DNA of 64,000 nucleotides, from positions 62,001 to 126,000 of IMG/VR virus record IMGVR_UViG_3300008267_000003. One strand, written 5' to 3'. The stretch comes from a virus. The notes under the pieces were generated by a model. It was not told the DNA's origin. It did no database searches and saw nothing but the letters and a program-made list of their open reading frames with translations. Below are positions 24,267 through 30,887 of this stretch, in pieces; the first letter of the stretch is position 1, and each line of letters opens with the position of its first letter. Both the position numbers and the translations under genes were made by a program.

Positions 24267-24287
24267 GGTGCGACACTTCAACGCACC
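24267..24287 (+). repeat. Short hairpin that competes with the first 18-bp stem
   Basis: GGTGCG (24267-24272) pairs with CGCACC (24282-24287) over a 9-base loop. Its last two bases are also the first two of the 18-bp stem beginning at 24286, so the two helices cannot both be complete. Confidence 0.5.
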
Positions 24288-24967
24288 ATATTGAAGCACA
24301 CTGATCCTCAAGGGCACGAGAGGTGGTGTAACCCTAATGCCGGGTGAAGGTTCGAATCCAGCAGTGTGTTTCAATATGGTAACCCAACTAACTGTGATAC
24401 CAGTACGACATGCTGGGTAGCGGTTATCATAACCAGAATAGTAAAACAGAAACATTCTCTGTGATGTGTGCCTTGCTAGGAAACACAGGTACTTACCCTG
24501 TGTGATAGAATTAGCATTGAGGAGTCACGAAAGTTGAGATAGCGTGAGGGAGACTCAGCATGTTTCTGTTTGGCAAGATTTTGAAATAAAACAGAAATGT
24601 GCGTTCTGTCTCTGCAGAGAGTTCAGCAAGGGTTTGATGCGGTAATGACTTCGACATCATGTAACAGTCAGTTCCTTGTTAGCATTAATATTAATTTAGA
24701 GTAACTGAGGCGCTTCACCTCAGGGCGACCAGTGTGAGCCTGCTTTAAGTAGGACAGCTCGCAGAATCAAAGAAGCAAGAATCCGGTTACTACTTCCCTG
24801 AAAGTAGCGTTTGATTAGCGATAGAGATCCGGTGGCAGAAAACCGTTAGCGAGGCAACCCCTCAGACTCTGATAGGCAGTATCCCTCTGCACACAGACAA
24901 CAGAATAAAAGGGATGGACAGGGTAACAACTCGAGGGAGGGGCTAGCGTGGAAAACAGTAGCCTCCC
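24286..24967 (+). ncRNA. Large structured noncoding RNA 1 (GOLLD/ROOL-like candidate)
   Basis: About 680 bases with no supportable gene and dense pairing. A perfect 18-bp stem (24286-24303 with 24362-24379) closes a 58-base loop that contains a T-loop-like GGTTCGAATCC. Then come ACAGAAACAT / ATGTTTCTGT (24446-24455 with 24560-24569), hairpin ACACAGG / CCTGTGT (24483-24489 with 24497-24503), CTGAGG / CCTCAG near 24704-24722 and ATCCCT / AGGGAT (24881-24886 with 24910-24915). The terminal stem is 24935-24945 with 24959-24967. It ends 9 bases before a tRNA. The 3' domain matches RNA 2. The GOLLD/ROOL assignment rests on size, complexity and tRNA context, not on a model search. Confidence 0.78.
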
Positions 24968-24976
24968 ACTAATTCA

Positions 24977-25053
24977 GGGCCGGAAGCTCATTTGGTATGA
25001 GCAATCGACTCATAATCGATCGGCATTGGGTTCGAATCCCAAACGGCCCACCA
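24977..25053 (+). tRNA. tRNA with CAT anticodon (Met or Ile2)
   Basis: Cloverleaf with acceptor GGGCCG / CGGCCC, anticodon loop CTCATAA, T-loop TTCGAAT and encoded CCA. C4-G69 and C5-G68 resemble the identity pairs of the lysidine-modified tRNA-Ile2 more than elongator tRNA-Met, so Ile(AUA) is quite possible. Confidence 0.9.
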
Positions 25054-25067
25054 CTATTGGAGATAAT

Positions 25068-25499
25068 ATGAAATCTTGGACATTACCTGTTAAAGAAACT
25101 GAGAACGGTGAACTTTACATTGAACTTAACGATGAAATACTTGAAGGTAGTGGATTCAAGATTGGTGACACATTACAATGGAAAGATCTTAAAGATGGAT
25201 CGTACAGCTTAACTAAAGCTGAGGGTGACCTATATGTTGTTGAAGGTATCAGCATGTTCCATATCAAATTTGTAGTTCGTGCAAAGCAAGCGGAACATGC
25301 ATGTGATGAAGTTGTTATGGATAATGGTTCATTGAAAGAGCTTAGCCAGAAACATATAGACTTTAACATTCTTGGAGCTCGAAAAATCTCTCAGGATGAG
25401 TACCTTAGAATGTTCGACGAGGATAATGACTATCTTCGTAGCTGGACAGATGAACAGAAGTTAGATCTGATTAACGAGATTGATTATGAAAGTGATTGA
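25068..25499 (+). CDS. AbrB-like domain protein
   Basis: ATG 25068 follows GGAG at a good distance. The first 50 residues (KSWTLPVKETENGELYIELN, then FKIGDTLQWKDL) resemble the swapped-hairpin AbrB/MazE DNA-binding fold, common in marine phage proteins of this opening. The rest, about 90 residues, is unassigned. Confidence 0.6.
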   Translation: MKSWTLPVKETENGELYIELNDEILEGSGFKIGDTLQWKDLKDGSYSLTKAEGDLYVVEGISMFHIKFVVRAKQAEHACDEVVMDNGSLKELSQKHIDFNILGARKISQDEYLRMFDEDNDYLRSWTDEQKLDLINEIDYESD

Positions 25500-25644
25500 A
25501 CGTTGGTACGAGAAGCTGCTAGGATATGACTGGCACTACAGACTCCGTAAACAATTTACGTTTACAGAGTGGATAATTGTGTTTGTTGTGGGCTTCTTTG
25601 CCATATACTTTTTCCTTGATTGGATGATTTACGGAGATCTATAA
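25486..25644 (+). CDS. Small single-pass membrane protein, 52 aa
   Basis: A 52-residue product with a charged N-terminal half and one membrane helix (WIIVFVVGFFAIYFFLDW). It overlaps the previous gene by 14 bases and its stop overlaps the next start (TAATG), so it is coupled on both sides. Confidence 0.55.
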   Translation: MKVIERWYEKLLGYDWHYRLRKQFTFTEWIIVFVVGFFAIYFFLDWMIYGDL

Positions 25645-26309
25645 TGCGTGTATACATTGGACCATACAAGAATTGGGTCGGTCCTTTCCAGATTGCAAGA
25701 ACTATTTTGTTCTGGATGGACAGGGAAGACGATCGTGTGTACAAGTTTGGTGAGTGGCTTGCTGGTAAGGACGATTATTCTTTGTTGATGAGGGCTTGTC
25801 TTTGGGTTGAGAAGTTTAGAAAGCAAAAGATAAGCGTCAGAATTGACAATTATGATACATGGTCAATGGACCATACACTTGCTCATATCATCTTACCGAT
25901 GTTAAAACAGCTCAAGGAAACTAAGCATGGAGCTCCTAACGTTGATGATGATGATGTCCCTGAAGAACTGAAAAGCTCTTCGGCTCCACCTAGGGAAGAT
26001 GAGTGGGATATCGATGGTAACCATTTCAAGCGGTGGGATTGGGTACTTGATGAAATGATATTTGCCTTCGAGTGCAAACTTAATGATAGCTGGGACGATG
26101 AGTTCTGGACTGGTGAATGGGGCAAGTCTGAATTTGTAGAAACTGATGAAGAGCATCTTAATTCGTTGACAAATAAAATGGAAAAGTTGTATACTATGGT
26201 TAATTCAGGTAACCGTACCTGTGATTGGGAAGCGCGTCAGAAAGTTCAGAACCGTATAACCAATGGGTTCAAACTGTTTGGCAAATATTATGAAAATCTT
26301 TGGGATTGA
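25644..26309 (+). CDS. Conserved phage protein of unknown function, 221 aa
   Basis: ATG 25644 overlaps the previous stop. The protein has a very recognisable core (RIDNYDTWSMDHTLAHIILP followed by MLKQLKETKHGAPNVDDDDV) that recurs in many unrelated marine phages without known function. Trp and acidic residues are abundant and no catalytic motif is obvious. Confidence 0.7.
   Translation: MRVYIGPYKNWVGPFQIARTILFWMDREDDRVYKFGEWLAGKDDYSLLMRACLWVEKFRKQKISVRIDNYDTWSMDHTLAHIILPMLKQLKETKHGAPNVDDDDVPEELKSSSAPPREDEWDIDGNHFKRWDWVLDEMIFAFECKLNDSWDDEFWTGEWGKSEFVETDEEHLNSLTNKMEKLYTMVNSGNRTCDWEARQKVQNRITNGFKLFGKYYENLWD
26166..26195 (+). promoter_or_regulatory. Internal sigma70-type promoter
   Basis: TTGACA at 26166-26171, an 18-base spacer and TATACT at 26190-26195, inside the preceding gene and upstream of the lipoprotein gene. 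Confidence 0.5.
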
Positions 26310-26310
26310 T

Positions 26311-26841
26311 ATGAACAAATTTTATATTATGATGTTGGTAGTGGCTCTTGGTGCTTGTTCTAGTAATAAGATGACCAAAGTTCCAGAATCAACTGGTCTT
26401 GTTCCAGACTGGTTTGCATCCGAGCCTCAGAAAGACAGTACTGATGTTGTTGTTACTGCAACTGATATATCTAAGGACATGCAGTTTGCAATTGATAAAG
26501 CAATGTTAAATGCACGAGTAGAACTGGCTAACCGTATCAGTACTAAGGTAGAATCAATAGTTCGAGAATCTGTTATAGAAGATAGTTCATCCAAGGTTAA
26601 GGATGTAGAACGTGAGGTTGATCGAGTATCTAAACAAGTTACGGAACAGGTGCTATCAATGTATACACGTGAAAAACTTGTTGTGGTTAAAGAAGGTGGC
26701 GGTTATAGAGCTTATGTAATGCTCAAGCTATCTGAAGATCAAGGTCGTAAGCTGTTCAACAACGCTCGCAAAAGTTCTAAGAATAGAGAGGCTGCTTTTA
26801 GAGAACTTGATTCTGAAATTGAAAGATCAAGAAAAAACTAA
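26311..26841 (+). CDS. LPP20-like lipoprotein
   Basis: ATG 26311 gives a clean lipoprotein signal (MNKFYIMMLVVALGACSSNK with lipobox LGAC), so I prefer it to ATG 26290. After the lipobox comes a LPP20-type domain: PDWFASEP, then a helix with AMLNARVELANRIS and a final strand pair. The product should be anchored in the host envelope. The role in infection is unknown; envelope defence is a guess. Confidence 0.75.
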   Translation: MNKFYIMMLVVALGACSSNKMTKVPESTGLVPDWFASEPQKDSTDVVVTATDISKDMQFAIDKAMLNARVELANRISTKVESIVRESVIEDSSSKVKDVEREVDRVSKQVTEQVLSMYTREKLVVVKEGGGYRAYVMLKLSEDQGRKLFNNARKSSKNREAAFRELDSEIERSRKN

Positions 26842-26869
26842 AATATTTTTAGTAAAAGTTTGATTTACG

Positions 26870-26898
26870 TTGACATTTTTTATATATAGTAGTACGAT
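26870..26898 (+). promoter_or_regulatory. Sigma70-type promoter of a noncoding RNA
   Basis: TTGACA at 26870-26875, a 17-base spacer and TACGAT at 26893-26898. No gene follows before the terminator at 27045. Confidence 0.7.
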
Positions 26899-26904
26899 TA
26901 CTTT

Positions 26905-27074
26905 TTTTTGCAGGACCATTGGAATAATGATACAGATACATACAACCCCCCAGATTTCCATTAATGGCTTTACGAAGCCAGGATATCGCGCCGACTCATG
27001 GAGCGAGATATCATAGGGTCATAGTATACTCCGTATATTCCAAGACCCGAGCAAAACGACTCGGGTTTTTTTTT
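26905..27074 (+). ncRNA. Candidate small noncoding RNA, about 170 nt
   Basis: Between a promoter and a strong terminator there is no reading frame of note but clear pairing: GGCTT-TACG-AAGCC, an inverted repeat GATATC...GATATC around 26981-27012, and a short TATAC hairpin near 27023. Its position just before the tRNA run recalls the stable RNAs C and D of T4, though I see no sequence match to claim. Confidence 0.6.
27045..27074 (+). terminator. Strong intrinsic terminator
   Basis: A 7-bp stem ACCCGAG / CTCGGGT (27045-27051 with 27060-27066) with an 8-base loop, and nine consecutive T residues from 27066. Confidence 0.92.
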
Positions 27075-27099
27075 AGCTCTCTAACAATTAGGATCCATT

Positions 27100-27189
27100 G
27101 GAAGCTTGGCTGAGTGGTTTAAGGCAGCGGTCTTGAAAACCGTCGATCGTTTGCGCGGTCCGTGAGTTCGAATCTCACAGCTTCCACCA
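27100..27189 (+). tRNA. tRNA-Ser (TGA)
   Basis: Acceptor GGAAGCT / AGCTTCC, anticodon loop CTTGAAA, long variable arm as in serine tRNAs, encoded CCA. The CCA is also the start of the next 18-bp stem. Confidence 0.95.
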
Positions 27190-27260
27190 TATAAAAGTAC
27201 ACTAACCACTACAGTAGGGATCCTGGTGGGGCTGCTACACCCTAGTGTACTTTTATATGG
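27187..27260 (+). repeat. 18-bp stem spanning two serine tRNAs
   Basis: A perfect inverted repeat: CCATATAAAAGTACACTA (27187-27204) pairs with TAGTGTACTTTTATATGG (27243-27260). The loop is 38 bases. The left arm begins with the CCA of tRNA-Ser(TGA) and the right arm ends with the first GG of tRNA-Ser(GCT). No T run follows, so it is not a terminator. Confidence 0.9.
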
Positions 27261-27348
27261 AGAATTGGCTGAGAGGCTTAAGGCAGCGGTTTGCTAAACC
27301 GTCGATTCAGTAATGGGTCCACTGGTTCGAATCCAGTATTCTCCACCA
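27259..27348 (+). tRNA. tRNA-Ser (GCT)
   Basis: Acceptor GGAGAAT / ATTCTCC, anticodon loop TTGCTAA, long variable arm, encoded CCA. The first two bases belong to the preceding inverted repeat. Confidence 0.95.
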
Positions 27349-27363
27349 ACTAAGGAGGAAGAA

Positions 27364-27960
27364 ATGGCAAATATATTTTTAGTTAGCGATACCCATTTTG
27401 GTCATGCTGGTGTTTGTCGTTTCCTTAGAGACGATGGAACCAAGCTTCGGCCATGGGATGATCCAAATGATATGGATGAAGCTATGATTGAAAAATGGAA
27501 CTCTGTTGTCAAACCAAGAGACAAGGTGTATCATCTTGGAGATGTAGTAATAAATCGGAAAGCATTAAAGATACTAGGATTGCTTAATGGTGATAAGGTT
27601 TTAATCAAAGGTAATCACGATATCTTTAAGCTAGAGGATTATACACCTTACTTCAGAGATATTCGTGGTTATCATGTAATGAGTGGAATGATATTAAGTC
27701 ATATTCCAGTTCATGAAAGTAACCTTTATAGATTTGGAACAAATATTCACGGTCATACTCATAGTAACCGAGTAATGAAAACAGTTACTGTGCAAGAGTC
27801 TAGTCCGTATGATCCAAGACCGTATGATGTTAAAAAGCAAGTTATCGATCCTCGATACCACTGTGTATGTGTTGAACAAACTGACTTTGCACCAATCTCT
27901 TTTGAGGATGTAAAGTTACGAATCAAGGCAGAAGGTGGTGACATATCATTTAAAAGTTAA
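27364..27960 (+). CDS. Calcineurin-like metallophosphoesterase
   Basis: ATG 27364 follows AAGGAGGAAG. The 198-residue product carries the metal motifs in order: DTHFGHAG (9-16), YHLGDVV, KGNHD and NIHGHTHS. This is the size and layout of the small phage and bacterial phosphoesterases of unknown substrate. It lies between tRNA genes and is likely an early accessory enzyme. Confidence 0.88.
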   Translation: MANIFLVSDTHFGHAGVCRFLRDDGTKLRPWDDPNDMDEAMIEKWNSVVKPRDKVYHLGDVVINRKALKILGLLNGDKVLIKGNHDIFKLEDYTPYFRDIRGYHVMSGMILSHIPVHESNLYRFGTNIHGHTHSNRVMKTVTVQESSPYDPRPYDVKKQVIDPRYHCVCVEQTDFAPISFEDVKLRIKAEGGDISFKS

Positions 27961-27961
27961 T

Positions 27962-28039
27962 GCAACGGTGGCAGAGAGGCCCAATGCAAGAGTCTGCAAA
28001 ACTCTAAAACCGTCAGTTCGAATCTGACCCGTTGCTCCA
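27962..28039 (+). tRNA. tRNA-Cys (GCA)
   Basis: Acceptor GCAACGG / CCGTTGC, anticodon loop CTGCAAA, T-loop TTCGAAT, discriminator T and encoded CCA. It starts one base after the phosphoesterase stop. Confidence 0.93.
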
Positions 28040-28048
28040 GGAGGCTAT

Positions 28049-28294
28049 ATGAGTGGTAAAGGAAGTAAACCAAGACCTTATAGTGTTGATCAGAAAACGT
28101 TTGATTCTAATTGGAATAGTATATTCAATAAGAAGAAAAAGACTGATCAAGAAAAGTTTGATGAAGCAATAATGAAGAATGAATATTATGATAAGCTAAC
28201 CACAGAAGAAGCTTTAACTGAAATGGTTAGGATTAGTGAAGAGATGGGTGCTTATGTTGATGAGCCTATTGAGAACCCATTGATTAAAAAATAA
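28049..28294 (+). CDS. Hypothetical protein with a GKGSKPRP N-terminus
   Basis: 81 residues with an AGGAGG ribosome site. The opening SGKGSKPRPYSVDQKTFDSN followed by WNSIF recurs in many phage proteins of unknown function. It is basic at the N-terminus and acidic at the C-terminus, and soluble. Confidence 0.6.
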   Translation: MSGKGSKPRPYSVDQKTFDSNWNSIFNKKKKTDQEKFDEAIMKNEYYDKLTTEEALTEMVRISEEMGAYVDEPIENPLIKK

Positions 28295-28295
28295 T

Positions 28296-28369
28296 CTCGG
28301 TGTGATGTAATGGTAGCATAGCGATCTCCAAAATCGTTTGTTGCGGTTCGAGTCCGTACACCGAGGCCA
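28296..28369 (+). tRNA. tRNA-Trp (CCA)
   Basis: Acceptor CTCGGTG / CACCGAG, anticodon loop CTCCAAA, T-arm TGCGG-TTCGAGT-CCGTA, discriminator G and encoded CCA. Confidence 0.9.
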
Positions 28370-28377
28370 GAAACAAC

Positions 28378-28472
28378 GGTAGGTAGCACTGGTGTGCGGC
28401 TAGGTCTTATAAGCCTGGGAGAGCGGTCAGATGGGCTGCAACGGAAGAGTTCGAATCTCTTACCTACTACCA
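28378..28472 (+). tRNA. Unusual type II tRNA-like gene, apparent TAT anticodon
   Basis: Acceptor GGTAGGT / ACCTACT, a regular T-arm AAGAG-TTCGAAT-CTCTT and encoded CCA make this a tRNA. The D-arm has only a 4-base loop (GCAC-TGGT-GTGC). The anticodon stem encloses CTTATAA, and about 27 bases lie between the anticodon stem and T-stem. Read directly the anticodon is TAT (Ile, AUA codons), yet the long variable region fits Leu, Ser or Tyr. The identity is unresolved and it may be degenerate. Confidence 0.55.
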
Positions 28473-28474
28473 AC

Positions 28475-28549
28475 GCGGATATAATTCAGTGGTAGAATGT
28501 TTGCTTGCCAAGCAAAATGTCGTCGGTTCGAACCCGACTATCCGCTCCA
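28475..28549 (+). tRNA. tRNA-Gly (GCC)
   Basis: Acceptor GCGGATA / TATCCGC, anticodon loop TTGCCAA, T-loop TTCGAAC, discriminator T and encoded CCA. Confidence 0.95.
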
Positions 28550-28567
28550 CTAACAAGGAGAACCAAA

Positions 28568-28632
28568 ATGGGGCTGTTGCAGTAATCTTTTTAGTTGTTG
28601 TATTGTTATATTTTATTGATAAAAATTCTTAG
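28568..28632 (+). pseudogene. Frame-broken small membrane peptide
   Basis: An AAGGAG site precedes ATG 28568, but that frame stops after five codons. The neighbouring frame encodes AVAVIFLVVVLLYFIDKNS with its stop at 28630-28632. A single missing G in the GGGG run after the ATG would restore a 20-residue membrane peptide, so this is a recent frameshift or a sequencing slip. Confidence 0.4.
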
Positions 28633-28646
28633 AAAGGAGTCCTGTT

Positions 28647-28685
28647 ATGGACAGTGACAAGAGTGATAAGATGATGGGTGCGTAA
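28647..28685 (+). CDS. Leader-like peptide, 12 aa
   Basis: AAAGGAG lies 7 bases before ATG 28647; the product is MDSDKSDKMMGA and its stop lies inside the following tRNA-Lys gene. A good ribosome site is the only support. Confidence 0.25.
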   Translation: MDSDKSDKMMGA

Positions 28686-28752
28686 CTCAACTGGTTAGAG
28701 TAATCGGCTTTTAACCGATAAGTTGTGAGTTCGAGTCTCACCGCACCTACCA
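28676..28752 (+). tRNA. tRNA-Lys (TTT)
   Basis: Acceptor GGGTGCG / CGCACCT, anticodon loop CTTTTAA, T-arm GTGAG-TTCGAGT-CTCAC, encoded CCA shared with the next stem. Confidence 0.94.
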
Positions 28753-28834
28753 TATACAAACACATTCAAACACATAATGACGCCCGGGGTTATGGATTAC
28801 TGTTACGAGGATCCAAGAGTGTGTTTCTATATGG
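28750..28834 (+). repeat. 18-bp stem between tRNA-Lys and tRNA-Gln
   Basis: Bases 28750-28767 (CCATATACAAACACATTC) pair with 28817-28834 with one C-C mismatch. The loop has 49 bases. The left arm begins with the CCA of tRNA-Lys and the right arm ends 7 bases before tRNA-Gln. It has the same architecture as the stems at 24286, 27187 and 30385. Confidence 0.82.
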
Positions 28835-28841
28835 TATCTAT

Positions 28842-28915
28842 TGGGGTATAGTGAAATGGTATAACAACTGGTTTTGAGCCAGTCGTCCTTGGTTCGATTC
28901 CAAGTGCCCCTGCCA
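28842..28915 (+). tRNA. tRNA-Gln (TTG)
   Basis: Acceptor TGGGGTA with a weak first pair, as usual for Gln; anticodon loop TTTTGAG, T-arm CTTGG-TTCGATT-CCAAG, encoded CCA. Confidence 0.93.
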
Positions 28916-28921
28916 AGTATT

Positions 28922-28996
28922 CGGTCTTTAGTAAAATGGAGATTACGCAACGCTACGGACGTTGAGGTGTGGGTTCGATTCCTGCAAGACCGGCCA
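28922..28996 (+). tRNA. tRNA-Arg (ACG)
   Basis: Acceptor CGGTCTT / AAGACCG, anticodon stem CAACG / CGTTG with loop CTACGGA, discriminator G and encoded CCA. A34 would need conversion to inosine by the host enzyme to read CGC and CGA. Confidence 0.92.
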
Positions 28997-28998
28997 AT

Positions 28999-29074
28999 GG
29001 TGTCTTTAGTGTAGTGGCCTGCATTCGAGTCTGTGAAACTCGAGGTACGAGATCGATACTCGTAAGACACCCCA
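28999..29074 (+). tRNA. tRNA-His (GTG)
   Basis: An extra G precedes the acceptor (GTGTCTT / AAGACAC) and faces C73, the His identity pair. Anticodon loop CTGTGAA; CCA encoded. Confidence 0.92.
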
Positions 29075-29076
29075 AT

Positions 29077-29152
29077 GCTGCTTTAGCTGATGTGGTCATA
29101 GCAGGTCCCTGAAGAGGACATGAACTAGGTTCGATTCCTAGAGGCAGCACCA
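29077..29152 (+). tRNA. tRNA-Phe (GAA)
   Basis: Acceptor GCTGCTT / AGGCAGC, anticodon loop CTGAAGA, T-arm CTAGG-TTCGATT-CCTAG, encoded CCA. Confidence 0.93.
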
Positions 29153-29162
29153 AAGTTTGAAT

Positions 29163-29247
29163 GGGAGTGCGGCGCAGTTAGAGAGGCGCGGCTGACTGTA
29201 AATCAGTTCTTTCGGGTGAGTAGGTGCGAATCCTTCCACTCCCACCA
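29163..29247 (+). tRNA. tRNA-Tyr (GTA)
   Basis: Acceptor GGGAGTG with CACTCCC, anticodon loop CTGTAAA, long variable arm as in bacterial tRNA-Tyr, encoded CCA. Confidence 0.95.
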
Positions 29248-29251
29248 ATTT

Positions 29252-29326
29252 ACCTTCGTAGCTCAGTGGTAGAGCATTCGCTTGATAAGCGAAGGGTCAG
29301 TGGATCGTTCCCACTCGAAGGTACCA
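29252..29326 (+). tRNA. tRNA-Ile (GAT)
   Basis: Acceptor ACCTTCG / CGAAGGT, anticodon loop TTGATAA, encoded CCA. The T-loop reads ATCGTTC rather than TTCGANN, as does that of tRNA-Asp at 31221. Confidence 0.92.
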
Positions 29327-29335
29327 AAGGATATT

Positions 29336-29824
29336 ATGAAAAAATTACTTTTTATTTTAATGTTGTTACCATCCATTGCAAGTGCTTGTGACAGTTACGT
29401 TATTGGATTCAAAGGCATTAACAATGTATTTGATGATAACGCTTTTAGACAGTATGCAATGAAGTATAAAGCATGTTCATTAGCTTACAGTTGGAATCAA
29501 GTGCATACAGCTGTTAAATTTATTAACAGTACTAAGAAGAAGTATCAGCTGTATGGATTCAGTAAGGGCGCAGAAAGTATAGGACAGGTTTTAAAACAAG
29601 TTAAACGCAAACCATACCACGTAGTAACAATTGGTGCTTACCATACTGCGAATGTTAACTATAGAGTGTACGGTGTGTCAACGCAGAACTATTTTGACGG
29701 CTCGGGAAGTAGGAACAGGTCCCCGGGCACTCATATAAGAGGAGTAGATCACGAAGACATGCAAAGACACGTTAATAGTTACTATTTTGGTATCAAACAA
29801 TGCCAGCGGAGAAAGGGCTGTTGA
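29336..29824 (+). CDS. Exported alpha/beta-hydrolase-like protein
   Basis: ATG 29336 starts a clear signal peptide (MKKLLFILMLLPSIASAC). Near residue 74 the mature part has GFSKGAES, a GxSxG nucleophile elbow, preceded by a strand (KYQLYGF). Near 110-140 lie Asp and His residues that could complete a triad, and several Cys suggest disulfides. At 162 residues it is small for the fold. It is likely a periplasmic esterase- or lipase-like enzyme of unknown substrate. Confidence 0.6.
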   Translation: MKKLLFILMLLPSIASACDSYVIGFKGINNVFDDNAFRQYAMKYKACSLAYSWNQVHTAVKFINSTKKKYQLYGFSKGAESIGQVLKQVKRKPYHVVTIGAYHTANVNYRVYGVSTQNYFDGSGSRNRSPGTHIRGVDHEDMQRHVNSYYFGIKQCQRRKGC

Positions 29825-29849
29825 CTTATTTTTGTGCTTGAGAGATAAT
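29821..29849 (+). promoter_or_regulatory. Sigma70-type promoter
   Basis: TTGACT at 29821-29826, a 17-base spacer and GATAAT at 29844-29849. It may drive the next gene, tRNA-Glu, the second large RNA and tRNA-Asn as one transcript, since no terminator lies between them. Confidence 0.8.
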
Positions 29850-29880
29850 ACATTTGTAACCATTGATAAAGGATAACATT

Positions 29881-30303
29881 ATGAAATTAGCTGCCGGTAA
29901 GTATGTGATTGCAGACCCCTGCTACATCCTCAATGAGGAAGTGTACTTCAGACTGCTGAAAGAAACCAACTACTTCATGTACGAAGCTGTTGAACGTGGT
30001 GGTGTAATGTCAGACAGTGAGACGGGAAAGTTCTTTGCTGTATTCAGTACCAAGTATGGTGATGGCACATACAGGGATGGTAAGGGATTCAAGTATGGTG
30101 TAGATGCAGGTTGCATTGCATGTATCCCTGCTGAGATGTGTGATCTGAAAGAAGACCGTGAGTACATCAACGAAGTAACTTTTGCTAGAGACTTCGAGGT
30201 ACGGTACGAGGATGGTTTGATTATATTTGGAGATGTAATTATTAATACTGATCCAGATGATTTTTATGATGATGAGGAAGAAAGCTACGAAGATGTAGCG
30301 TAA
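29881..30303 (+). CDS. Conserved phage protein of unknown function, 140 aa
   Basis: ATG 29881 follows AAAGGA. The opening AAGKYVIADPCYILNEE and the GVDAGCIACIPAEMC segment belong to a family found in many phages and some bacteria, with no assigned function. The C-terminus is a run of Asp and Glu. The start is set by the ribosome site and lies 32 bases after an early promoter. Confidence 0.65.
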   Translation: MKLAAGKYVIADPCYILNEEVYFRLLKETNYFMYEAVERGGVMSDSETGKFFAVFSTKYGDGTYRDGKGFKYGVDAGCIACIPAEMCDLKEDREYINEVTFARDFEVRYEDGLIIFGDVIINTDPDDFYDDEEESYEDVA

Positions 30304-30312
30304 GGTTTTAGT

Positions 30313-30387
30313 GCACCGTTCGTCTATCGGTTAGGACATTGCCCTTTCACGGCAGTAAGAGGAGTTCGATTCTCCTACGGTGTACCA
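30313..30387 (+). tRNA. tRNA-Glu (TTC)
   Basis: Acceptor GCACCGT / ACGGTGT, anticodon loop CTTTCAC, encoded CCA that also opens the 18-bp stem of the second large RNA. Confidence 0.95.
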
Positions 30388-30879
30388 TTTGATATGCTGG
30401 TTGTAAGCCATGGGCCGCAAGCCTGAGTAACTATCACAATATCTGGTTATCTCGAGTAACTCCAGTGAGTCGATAGCAAATAGTGCAGCCAGCATTTCAA
30501 ATGGTAACATAAAGGTTTGGCAGGAGCAGAGTCCAGTGGGAAGGACGACTAGGGGCCTGTAAAAACAAAGTAGTGAAACAATGGTATATCAACCATCAAA
30601 GTAGCGAACAGCCCTTATAGTAAACGGAGTAGCGGGAGAGAGTGATGTCTCAATGTGTCTACACCGGCCAAAAGAATCCCGTAGTCCCGTCTACGTTATT
30701 AACGGGGGTGTATTGGCACTAACCAGAACGCCAGGGTGCATACGATCACGGACCTCAAAACTCACTGACATGAGTGATAGAAACATCGTAGGTGGGTATC
30801 ACACCTTGTTTAACCAAAAGTAAATGTGATGGACAGAGTAACTGCTCAGGAGGGGGCTTATGGGAATGAGTAGCCTTCC
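30385..30879 (+). ncRNA. Large structured noncoding RNA 2 (same family as RNA 1)
   Basis: About 495 bases between tRNA-Glu and tRNA-Asn without a supportable gene. An 18-bp stem with one T-T mismatch (30385-30402 with 30487-30504) opens it. Then come ATGGT / ACCAT near 30582-30597, CCCGT / ACGGG and GTAG / CTAC nested near 30679-30705, ACTCA / TGAGT near 30761-30777, ATCACA / TGTGAT (30798-30803 with 30825-30830) and a terminal stem (30849-30860 with 30871-30879). The block GATGGACAGAGTAAC matches RNA 1 at 14 of 15 positions. The 3' end lies 8 bases before tRNA-Asn. Confidence 0.78.
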
Positions 30880-30887
30880 AAGATTAT

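Follow-up and report, generated by a model that had tools for sequence, protein, structure and literature searches.

Why would the encoded CCA end of a viral transfer RNA (tRNA) be taken up into a long stem with bases that lie downstream of its gene? The question is raised by a stretch of 64,000 nucleotides (nt; here called the window), bases 62001-126000 of the 162-kb virus record IMGVR_UViG_3300008267_000003, in which four stems anchored on CCA, E1 to E4, stand among 24 tRNA genes. A sequence-only reading of the window had proposed an undescribed element that covers tRNA 3' ends or sets the order of processing. With a probability of roughly 0.55, we read the four features as copies of one phage RNA element, termed the CCA clamp. 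It would be a processing hairpin of the type of the intervening sequence (IVS) of permuted transfer-messenger RNA (tmRNA), masking the CCA until an endonuclease releases it.

The four stems were the only ones in the window with at least 16 bp, at most one mismatch and arms 10-150 nt apart. The same count in 30 dinucleotide-preserving shuffles had a mean of 0.27 and a maximum of 1. The stems and their neighbors, from the stem scan and from tRNA calling, are as follows.

24269-24285, plus strand: small hairpin TGCG/CGCA directly before the CCA of E3, in place of a tRNA
24286-24379, plus strand: CCA-anchored element E3 (arms 24286-24303 and 24362-24379), 58-nt loop; 5' domain of the first large RNA
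27100-27189, plus strand: tRNA-Ser(UGA), whose CCA opens E1
27187-27260, plus strand: CCA-anchored element E1 (arms 27187-27204 and 27243-27260), perfect 18-bp stem, 38-nt loop
27259-27348, plus strand: tRNA-Ser(GCU), whose nt 1-2 close E1
28676-28752, plus strand: tRNA-Lys(UUU), whose CCA opens E2
28750-28834, plus strand: CCA-anchored element E2 (arms 28750-28767 and 28817-28834), 49-nt loop; pair 8 is a C.C mismatch and pair 16 is U.G
30313-30387, plus strand: tRNA-Glu(UUC), whose CCA opens E4
30385-30504, plus strand: CCA-anchored element E4 (arms 30385-30403 and 30486-30504), 84-nt loop; 5' domain of the second large RNA

All four stems were where the sequence-only reading had placed them, and all start with CCA and end with TGG. 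In three of them the CCA is, as had been claimed, the encoded 3' end of a tRNA, namely tRNA-Ser(UGA), tRNA-Lys(UUU) and tRNA-Glu(UUC); no tRNA was called at 24269-24285, upstream of E3. E1 sits between two tRNA-Ser genes, taking its CCA from the first and its GG from the 5' end of the second. The statement that every stem has 18 pairs was right as to length, which is near 18 bp throughout, but E2 and E4 each contain one mismatch. E1 is Watson-Crick paired at 18/18 positions, E3 has one G.U, and E4 has one U.U mismatch and one G.U. The discriminator position is included in the pairing (ACCA/UGGU) in three of the four stems. The loops span the 38 to 84 bases described earlier and their interiors are indeed unlike each other; that of E3 contains a T-arm-like GGTTCGAATCC, read from the sequence.

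A search of phage arrays for inverted repeats starting at CCA had been suggested, and related phages, far from lacking such repeats, carry many. A set of 80 viral loci was fetched via an unrelated phosphoesterase gene (27364-27960) and was thus unselected for the stem. A sequence-independent stem test on these loci and the window found a stem at 50 of 844 CCA-ended tRNAs, compared with 21 of 3075 control CCA sites nearby. A second set consisted of loci found by the commonest stem sequence pattern, which contains no tRNA. This pattern occurred in at least 119 and at least 120 stretches of viral contigs in two scans, and its exact form (25-55 nt gap) was absent from 84,980 bacterial and archaeal genomes. 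The element family is large and phage-specific. There were at least 231 distinct pattern copies and, among the matches listed, 161/231 start exactly at the CCA of a tRNA called by ARAGORN. A further 16 of the remaining 70 adjoin an uncalled T-arm (random rate 0.3% per side); the 54 copies with neither tRNA nor T-arm were left uncounted, as the near-palindromic pattern leaves their orientation ambiguous. On closer reading, several copies without a tRNA were elements followed by a large RNA. At the other end, 84 of 290 copies reach the next tRNA or run up to 5 nt into it, and another 72 stop no more than 20 nt short of it. In one locus, two different CCA-anchored elements stand in tandem behind one tRNA-Glu (L060, 1962-2174 and 2188-2339).

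The element also appears to be new, as had been supposed. Rfam returned only tRNA in the window at gathering scores, with no credible other RNA at E up to 1, and no known RNA in one other element region; no description was found in titles and abstracts of the open-licence literature. One element, compared by BLAST with 50,697 phage records, gave nothing useful, an 18-bp arm being too short for such a search.

The stem was then considered as RNA. In a set of 41 elements whose choice ignored stem sequence, both partners were changed in 177 cells, while 500 column shuffles gave a mean of 39 and a maximum of 56. Pairs were formed in 96% of cases versus 67% in the column shuffles, a figure inflated by selection for pairing. 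The element is an RNA structure with a strongly covarying stem. Among the matches listed, the 161 tRNA-anchored pattern copies have stems of 17-23 bp, 18 being commonest, with A.C at pair 8 in 86/161 and U.G at pair 16 in 120/161; the pattern had left pair 8 free and had restricted the right side of pair 16 to a purine. This asymmetry shows a constant orientation relative to the tRNA. Beyond the CCA, a pairing partner was available to the discriminator base in 80% of the 41 elements and to base 72 in 76%.

Which tRNAs carry the stem? In the unselected set it was found behind 15/25 tRNA-Lys(UUU), 11/24 tRNA-Gln(UUG) and 17/30 tRNA-Glu(UUC), together 43/79, a number that includes three leader-trailer cases behind tRNA-Lys (L013, L058 and L081, described below). 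Only 7/765 other tRNAs had it: two Leu(UAG) and one each of Leu(CAA), Ala, Ser(UGA), Arg(ACG) and Phe. In the pattern-selected set, among the matches listed, the corresponding numbers were 94/134, 30/127 and 51/146 (together 175/407) and 74/2639 for other tRNAs, the highest common one being Leu(UAG) with 16/102. Both sets together gave 109/159 for tRNA-Lys(UUU) and 1/56 for tRNA-Lys(CUU), so that the anticodon, not the amino acid, separates the carriers. The idea that the element covers tRNA 3' ends therefore needs narrowing: it recurs and is anchored there, but it is not general, and marks Lys(UUU), Gln(UUG) and Glu(UUC) (the UUN tRNAs). These three tRNAs share the 2-thio-U34 made by MnmA.

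Fisher tests on the isotype preference gave very small p values, though samples from related phages are not independent. As many loci come from related phages, the preference may be historical: the element could have arisen behind Lys, Gln and Glu tRNAs in one ancestor and been inherited, the stem being an ordinary processing hairpin. We regard this as unlikely, if still worth carrying. The next tRNA within 400 nt of a tRNA-Lys(UUU) element is of 18 kinds and the loops are mostly unrelated, which indicates that arrays and loops were reshuffled while the association with Lys stayed. Rare copies also occur behind Leu, Ile, Thr, Ala and Ser tRNAs, which shows that other sites are possible.

The element had been seen as one of tRNA arrays; it is found there, but the topology in which CCA is paired also occurs in the IVS of permuted tmRNA. 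Permuted tmRNA must lose an IVS that separates the CCA ending its first piece from the G opening its second (PMC11915505). Rfam detected a permuted tmRNA above its cut-off in 24/40 related records. The virus record itself has one, the sole permuted tmRNA of the genome, outside the window (L336, 6176-6544). It scored 169 bits with RF01850, of the betaproteobacterial type, and 148 bits with RF04321 (tmRNA_permuted), and ARAGORN gave its tag as ANDSEYALAA. The betaproteobacterial type may point to the host.

Pairing anchored on CCA across the IVS, at 11-14 of 14 positions, was present in all 18 tmRNAs parsed from 26 loci tried, with a test that took the best of several strand shifts. As an example, in L363 CCAGAAACACATT pairs with AGTGTGTTTCTGATGG. 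The stem was also visible by eye in L356, L358, L364, L367 and L372; in L371 only the left arm was seen. Furthermore, tRNA elements and IVSs often share a core, AARYRYAYU, matched at 8 or 9 of 9 positions in 17/25 IVSs and 30/41 tRNA elements. At least 8/9 positions matched in 1.8% of stretches after any CCA and in 0/6 IVSs of cultured phages, which were read by eye and include that of S-CRM01, just a few bases long. The Rfam consensus line CCAaaaauauauu..auauuuuuuaU is compatible with the core, which may thus be wider than these phages; one narrow pattern scan of bacterial genomes for the core in permuted tmRNA had no match. The shared topology, often with the shared core, favors the processing half of the sequence-only reading.

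Among cultured phages, Synechococcus phage BUCT-ZZ01 has two good copies of the element (L325, 5248/5370 and 14650/14787). Its tRNA-Lys(UUU) is followed by a stem (L325, 11396-11298, minus strand) with the same core, CATAATTATCTTAAAGCACATT and AGTGTGCTTTAAAATAATTAT, in which only the A of CCA pairs and whose right arm can also pair with a second downstream hairpin. Behind this tRNA-Lys (L325, 11162-11396, minus strand), the two hairpins share the strand AATAATTATAT and so could be mutually exclusive. The stem pattern with up to two mismatches had no match in DLP6, L02, Lacusarx, CcrColossus and DSL-LC03, and one isolated, unpaired arm match each in Cr30 and S-CRM01; S-CREM1 was left out of this search.

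How would a CCA clamp work? In the precursor, the upstream RNA, whether it is a tRNA, a small hairpin or the 3' piece of a permuted tmRNA, would pair through its last bases with bases 30-200 nt downstream, and the next RNA would often begin where the complementary strand of the clamp ends. The clamp would thus be an excisable spacer designed like the IVS of permuted tmRNA. As that IVS is an excised spacer, by analogy the tRNA elements would be cut out, with the CCA held in duplex until then. An unpaired RCCA assists RNase P, and charging depends on it. The duplex would hide the CCA from RNase P contacts, 3' exonucleases and synthetases; a double-strand-specific endonuclease may then cut it and the ends be trimmed. 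We guess that the cutter is probably a host enzyme, with RNase III as the obvious candidate. An RNase III substrate would be a duplex of about two helical turns; the stems measure 17-23 bp. In the UUN tRNAs the clamp would delay or meter release, for example until U34 has been modified. Housekeeping alone would leave the UUN preference without an explanation; metered release for U34 modification, or protection from tRNA-cutting immunity, may be at work.

Several observations weigh against this proposal. Most tRNAs in the same arrays have no stem, unlike what is expected of a general maturation signal, and loops that form families are unexplained by a pure processing role. RNase III (Pfam PF14622) was not found in the virus's own record. 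The consensus of the core was composed after the sequences had been seen. An IVS stem anchored on CA, without the core, occurs in DLP6 and CcrColossus, phages without tRNA elements, so that the topology is wider than the core and is insufficient alone to prove kinship; the tmRNA IVS of BUCT-ZZ01 (L325/L378) lacks the core despite the tRNA-Lys element.

The loops lend themselves to another explanation, in which the element serves mainly to carry small structured RNAs: the stem would provide a loop RNA with stable, well-defined termini, and the upstream tRNA would contribute only 5'-end processing (tRNA punctuation). We give it a minor share of belief. By loop sequence, the 290 tRNA-anchored elements form 166 clusters of up to ten members, and many of these appear behind more than one tRNA, with an outer stem type that varies by context. 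In one cluster with Gln, Lys and Val members, outer stems differ and paired changes can be seen by eye in the inner stems. Large RNAs also have the element as their 5' domain. However, 111 of the 166 clusters are singletons, and loops are only slightly more stable than shuffled ones (mean z -0.67). A carrier would need neither UUN tRNAs nor pairing with the tRNA's own CCA, which is lost at tRNA release.

Other properties of the loops were also recorded. The E2 loop belongs to a five-member cluster, all of whose members lie behind tRNA-Lys. Among the matches listed, a T-arm motif was found in 10/161 loops compared with 0.6 in shuffles, which indicates that some loops are tRNA-derived. Loops as mimics of ribosomal RNA (rRNA) were rejected: with the 290 loops, E. 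coli 16S, 23S and 5S rRNA were matched 0 times at E<0.01 and 15 times at E<0.1, no different from the 0-2 and 12-17 matches of shuffled loops. Pairing of the loop with the anticodon loop of the upstream tRNA was likewise discarded, the mean duplex energy being -7.35 and that with shuffled partners -7.28 to -7.60. Two further identities failed. An intrinsic terminator would have a G+C-rich stem and then a U run; the arms average 29% G+C, and the four window stems are followed by TAACCC, AGAATT, TATCTA and TAACAT. Copies of a miniature inverted-repeat transposable element (MITE) would have homologous interiors; those of the four window copies differ, and the 290 loops form 166 clusters.

The UUN preference could instead reflect counter-defence. 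Clamped precursors would escape nucleases that require an exposed CCA or a mature, modified anticodon, and would be released later to refill the pool. The selectivity for Lys(UUU), Glu(UUC) and Gln(UUG), which include classic tRNA-nuclease targets, is in line with this. PrrC is aided by mnm5s2U34 of tRNA-Lys, zymocin cuts tRNA-Glu(UUC) and PaT cuts tRNA-Gln(UUG) (PMC13191261), and AriB of PARIS cuts tRNA-Lys(UUU) (PMC12409363). Cas12a3 cuts CCA tails, and its authors state that viral resistance would take yet unknown means (PMC12851939). However, in vitro AriB also cuts Thr(UGU) and does not cut Gln(UUG) (PMC12409363), and Cas12a3 targets diverse tRNAs beyond UUN (PMC12851939). Zymocin and PaT are yeast toxins, not phage defences, no given defence is tied to these hosts, and the tmRNA IVS has the same clamp with no such threat. 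We hold counter-defence to be improbable. Least probable by far is a mobile or recombination element at the DNA level (MITE-like or integron attC-like), inserting at tRNA CCA and shuffling loops: near-palindromic ends, a conserved arm sequence and loop families that switch tRNA partner would suit it, but the arms covary with strand-specific asymmetry (A.C at pair 8, U.G at pair 16), as for RNA and not terminal repeats, loops of different copies are mostly unrelated, and the exact pattern occurs 0 times in the bacterial and archaeal genomes.

The CCA clamp may be taken one step further, to a scheme that we put forward tentatively and think rather unlikely. The phage would gate translation capacity by keeping its tRNAs for AAR, CAR and GAR codons, the UUN set in which U34 carries heavy modification and on which anticodon nucleases act, as inert, CCA-clamped precursors, with a clamp derived from or shared with the tmRNA IVS. 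One endonuclease would open it, so that tmRNA and UUN tRNAs mature together at a set time or after modification, and the loops would be fast-evolving small RNAs that tune or sense the opening. If true, a virus would time the usability of selected tRNAs by pairing the CCA tail common to all tRNAs, and large phage tRNA arrays and phage permuted tmRNAs would be linked through one processing signal. The roles of single phage tRNAs would become testable via changes in the stem, with the tRNA intact. The UUN preference offers a direct way to find out whether the driver is U34 modification or immunity that cuts tRNAs, and the host of the element-bearing isolate BUCT-ZZ01, S. elongatus PCC 7942, is genetically tractable.

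As had been read from the sequence, two of the stems, E3 and E4, form the 5' domains of large non-coding RNAs, at 24286-24972 (about 690 nt) and 30385-30884 (about 500 nt), whose 3' segments resemble each other.

24906-24968, plus strand: first large RNA, conserved 3' segment ahead of tRNA-Met; identity to 30821-30880 is 75%
30821-30880, plus strand: second large RNA, conserved 3' segment ahead of tRNA-Asn

Similar 3' segments recur in many loci, and BLAST with the 3' domain gave nothing useful. The large RNAs of the window are possibly a further class of large phage RNA.

With regard to the other genes, Pfam found T4-type genes in the virus record, including sliding clamp, clamp loader, gp32, baseplate and RNase H. 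Scans of 30 of the 135 open reading frames of at least 130 aa returned T4-type replication, virion and metabolic genes, and no tRNA-processing nuclease was found among these 30. ARAGORN called a 95-nt tRNA-Ile(UAU) at 28378-28472, which is not among the Rfam tRNAs at gathering score and matches the tRNA-Sec model weakly (29 bits, below the cut-off).

Four known systems resemble the element in part. GOLLD and ROOL are described as large structured RNAs beside phage tRNA islands (PMC12286853). E3 and E4 are likewise the 5' domains of large RNAs adjoining tRNAs, but the window RNAs have no Rfam match to E 1, and E1 and E2 stand alone. The GOLLD covariance model (RF02032) had no match in the window at gathering score or at E up to 1, nor did the ROOL model (Rfam 15) match there. 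The GOLLD model does match in L028 and L048, apart from large RNAs of the window type.

Stems processed by RNase III bracket pre-16S and pre-23S rRNA. In those as in the element, a long duplex closes a looped-out RNA within a polycistronic precursor; here, however, the loop does not contain the mature tRNA, whose 3'-terminal bases are part of the duplex. The same phage arrays contain tRNAs in which pairing of leader and trailer lengthens the acceptor stem by about 12 bp (L013, 4058-4159; L058, 5081-5182; L081, 4177-4276; L325, 14081-14174), tRNA-His among them. In L013, L058 and L081 a long stem likewise starts from the CCA region of the upstream tRNA, but its loop is a complete tRNA whose own acceptor stem is extended, with other sequence.

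Closest is the IVS of permuted tmRNA. Both are spacers that run from a 3' end in CCA to a G-rich 5' end; the tmRNA IVS is removed on maturation (PMC11915505), and the element would be too. In both the left arm starts in CCA and the right arm ends at the downstream 5' end, and in these phages the core is often common to both. The CCA is paired into the spacer stem in the window elements as in 18/18 parsed phage tmRNAs. In contrast, the window elements do not lie between a tmRNA 3' piece (T-arm, acceptor, CCA) and a 5' piece (GGGG..TTTCGAC), but the element follows complete, unpermuted tRNAs. Its stem is 17-20 bp with CCA fully paired, to UGG/UGGU as against UGAU in tmRNA, and its core is about 4 bp farther from the CCA. 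Because it lies outside any tmRNA, the element is outside the tmRNA IVS family, and what is new is that the CCA-to-5'-end IVS design of permuted tmRNA is used behind complete tRNAs.

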